This document shows positions 39,085-39,340 of a DNA stretch of 64,000 nucleotides, in pieces. A program made the position numbers and the translations under genes. The stretch spans positions 62,001 through 126,000 of the forward strand of contig NZ_AHTH01000009.1 in NCBI RefSeq assembly GCF_000245735.1. The letters run 5' to 3'. The notes beneath the pieces are model-generated. The model saw nothing but the letters and a program-made list of their open reading frames with translations, was not told the DNA's origin and ran no database searches. Numbering within the stretch: the stretch's first letter is position 1; every line of letters starts with the position of its first letter. Source of the stretch: Alishewanella jeotgali KCTC 22429 (GTDB lineage: Bacteria > Pseudomonadota > Gammaproteobacteria > Enterobacterales > Alteromonadaceae).

Positions 39085-39263
39085 TGGTTGCGCTAGCCGG
39101 ATTTCGACCTTCGCCCCGTGGTTATAAAGAGGAGCCCGAAGGCGCTTTCTATAATCACTTCTCACAATCAAGTTGGTTGCGGGAGCCGGATTTCGACCTT
39201 CGCCCCGTGGTTATAAAGAGGAGCCCGAGGGCGACTTTCTATAATCACTTCTAACAATCAAGT
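39085..39263 (-). repeat. Two tandem ~90-bp repeats seeded by the tRNA-fMet 3' end
   Basis: Two direct repeats, 39085-39173 and 39174-39263, abut the 3' end of the tRNA gene at 39264. On the plus strand each copy begins with the same 20 bases as the tRNA end (TGGTTGCGGGAGCCGGATTT; the far copy differs at two positions), then CGACCTTCGCCCCGTGG, then a shared non-tRNA stretch ending in ACAATCAAGT. The two copies differ by a few substitutions and one indel. Read with the tRNA (minus strand), each unit would end in CCGGCTCCCGCAACCA. This parallels the tRNA-end repeats downstream of E. coli tyrT. Confidence 0.88.
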
Positions 39264-39340
39264 TGGTTGCGGGAGCCGGATTTGAACCGACGACCTTCGG
39301 GTTATGAGCCCGACGAGCTACCAGGCTGCTCCATCCCGCG
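39264..39340 (-). tRNA. metY: tRNA-fMet (CAT), metY position
   Basis: A 77-nt initiator tRNA with encoded CCA. It begins CGCGGGATGGAGCAGCCTGG, with anticodon CAT in GGGCTCATAACCC; three G:C pairs in the anticodon stem and the unpaired first base (C1:A72) are initiator hallmarks. Synteny (leuU-metY-rimP) equals E. coli metY. It has its own promoter at 39357-39385. Confidence 0.97.

Follow-up and report, generated by a model that had tools for sequence, protein, structure and literature searches.

Truncated, loop-altered copies of tRNA-fMet in tandem behind metY of Alishewanella jeotgali

The metY-rimP locus and its tandem repeat

The window is the whole stretch of DNA analyzed here, 64,000 nucleotides of the Alishewanella jeotgali genome. 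Read along the minus strand, the locus comprises tRNA-Leu(GAG), tRNA-fMet, repeat units 1 and 2, a stretch resembling the rimP leader, and then rimP, nusA and infB, the last three being named from reading of their translations and from gene order. The original prediction placed tandem repeats of ~90 bp next to tRNA-fMet, and Tandem Repeats Finder and ARAGORN confirm these as units of 90 and 89 nt. The repeat (39084-39283, period 89, 2.2 copies, 95% match) has a score of 363, the highest of the 20 Tandem Repeats Finder rows for the window, where the runner-up scores 60. We refer to the units as satellites of their parent tRNA. The features of the locus are as follows.

39264-39340, minus strand: tRNA-fMet (CAT), parent of the satellites (ARAGORN; RF00005 61.3 bits)
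39174-39263, minus strand: satellite unit 1, 90 nt (Tandem Repeats Finder, alignment to tRNA)
39085-39173, minus strand: satellite unit 2, 89 nt (Tandem Repeats Finder, alignment to tRNA)
39197-39232, minus strand: core of unit 1, GCCC..GAAGG, the altered anticodon arm (mean pairwise identity 0.881, 11 genomes)
39213-39220, minus strand: CTCTTTAT of unit 1, the anticodon-loop insert plus the anticodon remnant (read from sequence; motif counted)
39124-39131, minus strand: CTCTTTAT of unit 2 (read from sequence; motif counted)
39174-39193, minus strand: tail of unit 1, the last 20 nt of tRNA-fMet, 20/20 (alignment)
39085-39104, minus strand: tail of unit 2, 18/20 of the tRNA end (alignment)
39238-39248, minus strand: 5′ arm of putative helix P0 in unit 1, with its partner at about 39207-39217 (minimum-energy fold; family permutation test)
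38960-39070, minus strand: rimP leader-like stretch with two hairpins, outside the satellites (RF01770 33.8 bits)
38482-38955, minus strand: 157-aa ORF, read as rimP from its sequence and the gene order (ORF translation)

The units are truncated copies of tRNA-fMet with an insert in the anticodon loop. Local alignment to the tRNA begins on the D-arm side, extends across the anticodon arm and reaches the CCA; the 5′ acceptor strand has no aligned counterpart in the unit. Unit 1 closes with AAATCCGGCTCCCGCAACCA, identical to the tRNA-fMet 3′ end in 20 of 20 bases. The 20-base tRNA 3′ terminus that was said to be carried by each repeat is exact in unit 1 and present at 18 of 20 positions in unit 2, and on the minus strand it ends each unit. 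The remainder was described as a shared non-tRNA stretch. This holds only in part, since some of the stretch is itself tRNA: apart from inserts and a deletion, it can be aligned to the tRNA's variable region and anticodon arm (TCGGGCTC..ATAACC..CGAAGGTCG). The anticodon loop contains six extra bases (CTC CTCTTT ATAA), a second six-base addition precedes CGAAGG, and the T arm is shorter than that of tRNA-fMet by 7 nt. Neither unit is called as a tRNA by ARAGORN or RF00005; the parent tRNA and tRNA-Leu are both called. Some copies in relatives retain the 5′ half (L084, L092 and L122), which suggests that the satellites derive from whole tRNA copies. A reading of the insert as a tRNA-Lys anticodon loop was set aside, because by eye the flanking stems do not extend.

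Of the helices that might form in a unit, there is some support for one modeled hairpin, P0, and none for the others. In P0, bases upstream would pair with the insert region. Across 44 non-redundant elements that lack a preceding terminator-like T run, pairing with an element's own partner has a mean of –6.38 kcal/mol, compared with –5.19 kcal/mol between elements, and 0 of 1000 permutations was as low; the test used the 55 of 119 elements left after removal of near-duplicates, with relatedness uncorrected. P0 is not supported in the 11 elements located behind such a T run (247 of 1000 permutations), nor does P2 have permutation support in any group of elements. Helices P2 (CGCC/GGCG) and P1 (GCC/GGC) seemed persuasive on inspection but were rejected as candidates, as among 40 units of the genus alignment they exhibit no two-sided changes and no excess over shuffles. 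A P0-P2 pseudoknot was dropped because P2 shows no covariation.

Downstream of the satellites, the stretch at 38960-39070 matches the rimP leader RF01770 with 33.8 bits, below the cut-off of 47, and its position upstream of rimP agrees. Two terminators had been proposed before rimP; two hairpins are indeed found there, of which only that at 38982-38964 passes a terminator scan on the minus strand. A promoter scan of 38900-39900 found none. In E. coli, as described in PMC6511841, metY is flanked by promoters on either side, and its operon further has two terminators ahead of rimP as well as sites for RNase III; transcripts from two promoters start with metY, and RNase III excises the tRNA. This precedent, together with the placement of the units between metY and the rimP leader, would suit a cis-acting role in the rimP-nusA-infB operon, with the units keeping tRNA maturation apart from the rimP mRNA as a spacer or as a site of cleavage. 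Yet satellites also occur behind fMet genes that by reading have no rimP leader downstream, and behind Val and Pro genes, and we regard a cis element as very unlikely.

Conservation and distribution of the units

How general are these units? In relatives they lie behind fMet genes, both at metY-rimP and at other fMet loci, in one to several copies and sometimes behind a terminator-like stretch, and several partial-tRNA variants can stand side by side. A covariance model of the units, built from 40 of 43 distinct units (46 rows), scores more than 50 bits in 23 of the 31 genus genomes. The relatives were checked for absent or random repeats, and core and tail are conserved; the remaining eight of the 31 genomes give only tRNA-level matches, at about 32 bits, which counts against the explanation favored below. 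So do the one metY-rimP locus of the 12 compared that has no unit (L045), and the two other fMet genes of the A. jeotgali genome itself, which have no satellite. Over the order as a whole, 236 of 394 genomes have a match to the unit model at E 1e-4. Outside the genus, the listed matches that exceed the highest tRNA level (35.1 bits) score 35.4-41 bits, and the subset of these that was inspected consists of longer relatives of the unit.

The metY-rimP loci allow the conservation of the parts to be compared. Taking the identities of core, tail, spacer and fourfold sites as rough yardsticks rather than calibrated rates, the mean pairwise value is 0.881 for the core, 0.929 for the tail and 0.565 for the 5′ spacer of the unit (11 genomes), and 0.506 for the fourfold sites of rimP (10 genomes, 45 pairs; L018 gave no rimP frame and L045, without a unit, was omitted). 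The Leu-fMet spacer before the tRNA has a value of 0.656 and the rimP leader 0.829 (12 genomes each).

Copy number varies between close relatives. The relative with the best match to the stretch (G003) has three units instead of two; its units 1 and 3 are the two of the window, and its unit 2 differs from unit 3 in two tail bases. Unequal crossing-over, raised as a source of the repeats in the original prediction, fits this difference of two units against three in loci that are otherwise identical over the units. The same difference is in keeping with a pure recombination by-product, that is a decayed tandem tRNA copy that persists only because its 3′ end is renewed again and again from the intact tRNA, by unequal crossing-over and gene conversion. 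The absence of satellites from some genomes and loci, and the partial-tRNA variants found side by side, point in the same direction. That the core is far more alike than the rimP fourfold sites argues against a by-product, yet the core is partly tRNA-like and so open to conversion too.

A strict pattern of 23 fixed bases taken from the altered anticodon arm was searched in one genome per species, covering 84,980 species. It gives 108 matches in 72 stretches, all gammaproteobacterial by their record titles. The genera include Rheinheimera, Arsukibacterium, Alishewanella, Alkalimonas, Shewanella and Psychromonas, together with Motilimonas, Marinobacterium, Aliamphritea, Neptunomonas and Acinetobacter. 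This span of distant gammaproteobacterial genera by the fMet insert is a further point against a by-product. Of the 108 matches, 73 follow a tRNA-Met on their own strand by less than 300 nt and 13 more by 300-1000 nt, making 86 within 1000 nt. A further 15 matches are at a locus edge, and one is behind an element read by ARAGORN as tRNA-Leu. The last six have no tRNA within 300 nt and no tRNA-Met within 1000 nt; the single match from Methylococcaceae (L091) is one of them and may be due to chance. The frequency of units without the motif is not readable from this search, because the motif was demanded. On these sequence comparisons, the repeats behind metY belong to a widespread set of tRNA copies that are truncated and altered in the loop. 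Titles and abstract openings, largely without subscription papers, contained no description of such units that we recognized. tRNA-like sequences have been reported in tRNA operons of Photobacterium; a literature search for such reports returned none.

Could the units be the footprints of integrative elements, left over as att sites? Integrases commonly use the anticodon loops, T loops and 3′ ends of tRNA genes. The inserts of the satellites are located in the anticodon loop or the T loop, and a repeated tRNA 3′ end would be typical of att sites. However, a scan of 2.9 million viral contigs with the strict pattern found no match, and searches with the two units gave none among 50,697 phage records or 72,556 plasmids (E 0.01). 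Moreover, in each of the 11 unit-bearing metY-rimP loci compared, the units have the tRNA on one side and the rimP leader on the other. An origin as att sites is very unlikely in the light of these searches.

Satellites of other tRNAs and the coupling of tails

The metY satellites have counterparts within the same genome. Examination of 48 tRNA genes (66 tRNA-model matches) for tail repeats located outside the tRNAs found them behind one fMet (metY), one Pro(TGG), three Val(TAC) and one Arg(ACG). In or beside the anticodon loop, the Val satellites have inserts such as GCTCTT with the anticodon TAC, and the Pro satellite has the insert GCTCTC. One array (L194; C18:233484-234038 of this genome) has three tRNA-Val genes and four satellites. 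Behind tRNA-Arg(ACG), at about 1750-2024 of L198 (contig C21), there is a tandem-repeat stretch that ends in the tRNA-Arg 3′ end with one mismatch in 14; by eye its GGTGAGAACCTCCG..GGTTCGACC stretch resembles the E. coli tyrT repeats, with no RtT match.

The motif CTCTTNAY is found in the bodies of 34 of 56 Val, 10 of 46 Pro and 34 of 58 fMet satellites from the fetched loci, where 0.33, 0.37 and 0.29, respectively, are expected in shuffled bodies. CTCTT itself is absent from the distinct parent tRNAs (Val 0/3, Pro 0/4, fMet 0/25). A longer form, in which CTCTTNAY is followed by ACGG after 1-8 bases, was counted in Val (32 of 57), Pro (6 of 49) and fMet satellites (11 of 74 and 12 of 80), against an expectation of 0.01 or less. 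There is also another form of fMet satellite in which the insert is placed in the T loop, and RCTYTTNAY fits six of its eight distinct inserts. The independent cases number about four, because members of one satellite set are related. Gene conversion alone provides no account of a similar CUCUU insert in the satellites of three tRNAs and in two loops, and this weighs against a by-product.

The Val and Pro inserts have a narrower range than that of fMet. Searched outside the genus, they matched one of 197 genomes, their own only. Val/Pro insert searches permitting up to 3 mismatches gave matches in 59 of 295 and 7 of 384 genomes. Among the resulting loci, 11 Val and five Pro loci from outside the genus hold no tRNA; 13 loci of the genus (L270-L282) hold tRNA-Val, and one further genus locus (L283) does not. 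Among the loci inspected, the insert-bearing Val and Pro satellites thus look limited to the genus, and this counts against the favored explanation, as does the absence of CTCTTNAY from all seven Gly satellites of Vibrionaceae.

Altered tRNA copies of other kinds were also seen. In loci that by reading belong to Vibrionaceae (L164, L056-L057), truncated tRNA-Gly copies lie behind tRNA-Gly(GCC) within tRNA arrays; these copies have an insert in the T loop, and their 3′ ends match with at most two mismatches. On the minus strand of another locus (L042, genome G033), fMet arrays have long repeated spacers holding other altered tRNA pieces, one of which by eye has a long extra anticodon stem.

How closely do the satellite tails follow their own tRNA? 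Satellites were located by the body and not by the tail, and each was compared with its own upstream tRNA. The last 12 nt are identical to that tRNA in 48 of 53 Val and 30 of 44 Pro satellites, sets that, like those of the motif counts, were confined to a limited distance from the parent tRNA and to sequences free of N, and in 75 of 141 fMet satellites, a set seeded by the insert region in which misplaced tails are included. Mean identity over the last 12 nt is 0.96 for Val and 0.90 for fMet, with 0.57 and 0.68 in the T loop. In Pro the values are 0.92 and 0.93; there is no sharp tail boundary in these satellites because the T loop is as tRNA-like as the tail, which again counts against the explanation we favor. 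The exact fMet tails correspond to five different host ends, CTCCCGCAACCA (52), CCCCCGCTACCA (12), CTCTCGCAACCA (6), TCCCCGCTACCA (3) and CTCCCGCTACCA (2). Thus tails tend to match the tRNA of their own host, also in lineages with a different fMet end.

Such tail identity fits either gene conversion or a requirement that the 3′ end be tRNA-like. A by-product of recombination might leave what is seen here, in Val and fMet an exact tail next to a T loop that has diverged, and in Pro an overall likeness to the tRNA. With the recurring insert and the constrained core set on the other side, we consider a pure by-product a serious alternative, though a somewhat less likely one. Conservation of the core and recurrence of the insert favor a functional RNA over it, but not decisively.

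Candidate function and comparison with known RNAs

The explanation to which we are tentatively drawn, at somewhat less than an even chance, is that the units are a co-transcribed tRNA-mimic RNA of which the inserted loop is the active part and the copy number is changed by unequal crossing-over. In each unit, the 3′ part of tRNA-fMet is copied without the 5′ acceptor strand and without much of the D arm; a CUCUU-bearing insert is added in the anticodon loop, and the 3′ strand of the acceptor is retained with its CCA. The satellites would sit in the trailer of the metY precursor and be transcribed together with it. The enzymes of tRNA end processing may recognize the tRNA-like 3′ end, and so free or trim an RNA from each unit. 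The loop, being exposed, would then do the work as a decoy or sponge for a common partner, which may be an RNA or a protein that reads tRNA loops, and unequal crossing-over would change the number of copies.

A broader reading, which we hold to be doubtful, extends this proposal to the other tRNAs. There may be an undescribed gammaproteobacterial class of tRNA-derived satellite RNAs, arising on several tRNAs and converged on one CUCUU loop, that jointly act as mimics or decoys for one partner, either reading tRNA loops or pairing with AAGAG.

The nearest parallel in layout is provided by the E. coli tyrT repeats, to which the units were likened at the outset. These too lie directly behind a tRNA gene, and each closes with an exact copy of the tRNA 3′ end (19 nt with the CCA); the tyrT repeat aligns partly to tRNA, with a long insert before the 19 nt. 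The comparison is sound in layout because the tyrT repeats share both the exact end and the partial alignment to tRNA. They differ in the tRNA concerned, in a period of 178 nt compared with 89-90 for the metY units, and in the position of the insert, which is next to the T loop in tyrT and in the anticodon loop in metY. The likeness does not extend to membership of the RtT family. RtT (RF00391) scores 132.9-137.5 bits on the four E. coli copies, yet has no match up to E 0.5 on the metY units or on the Val, Pro, Arg and Gly satellite loci (five loci in all). Despite the similar tandem layout with exact tRNA ends, it is extremely unlikely that the units are RtT RNAs, and no Rfam family matched the units in the loci tested. 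RtT is reported in PMC4986893 to be an RNA that tRNA operons release and that has a link to the stringent response.

A second parallel is 3′ETS-leuZ of E. coli, which likewise is an RNA from the trailer of a tRNA transcript and acts as an sRNA sponge. It differs in being described as an excised spacer, of 53 nt, and the passage of the review PMC8166272 that describes it does not mention tRNA-end repeats. The rimP leader RF01770 is comparable in that the hairpins behind the units occupy its usual place, and differs in that it is an element separate from the satellites, here below the curated cut-off.

If the satellites are transcribed, they would be tRNA-like RNAs that are easily overlooked, since tRNA finders skip nearly all of them. 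A loop insert that recurs in similar form on copies of three different tRNAs would be a sign of a single undiscovered partner able to read tRNA-like loops. Were they neutral, the satellites would still be a record of tRNA gene recombination and of tails staying identical to the parent gene.

Two other features of the window were observed. The first, near the secG-rimP gene block, is an ORF of 455 aa at 42911-44278 on the minus strand, which reads like what we take to be an IS4-type transposase. The second is a ribosomal S15 leader (RF00114, 72 bits) at 32640-32761, also on the minus strand.
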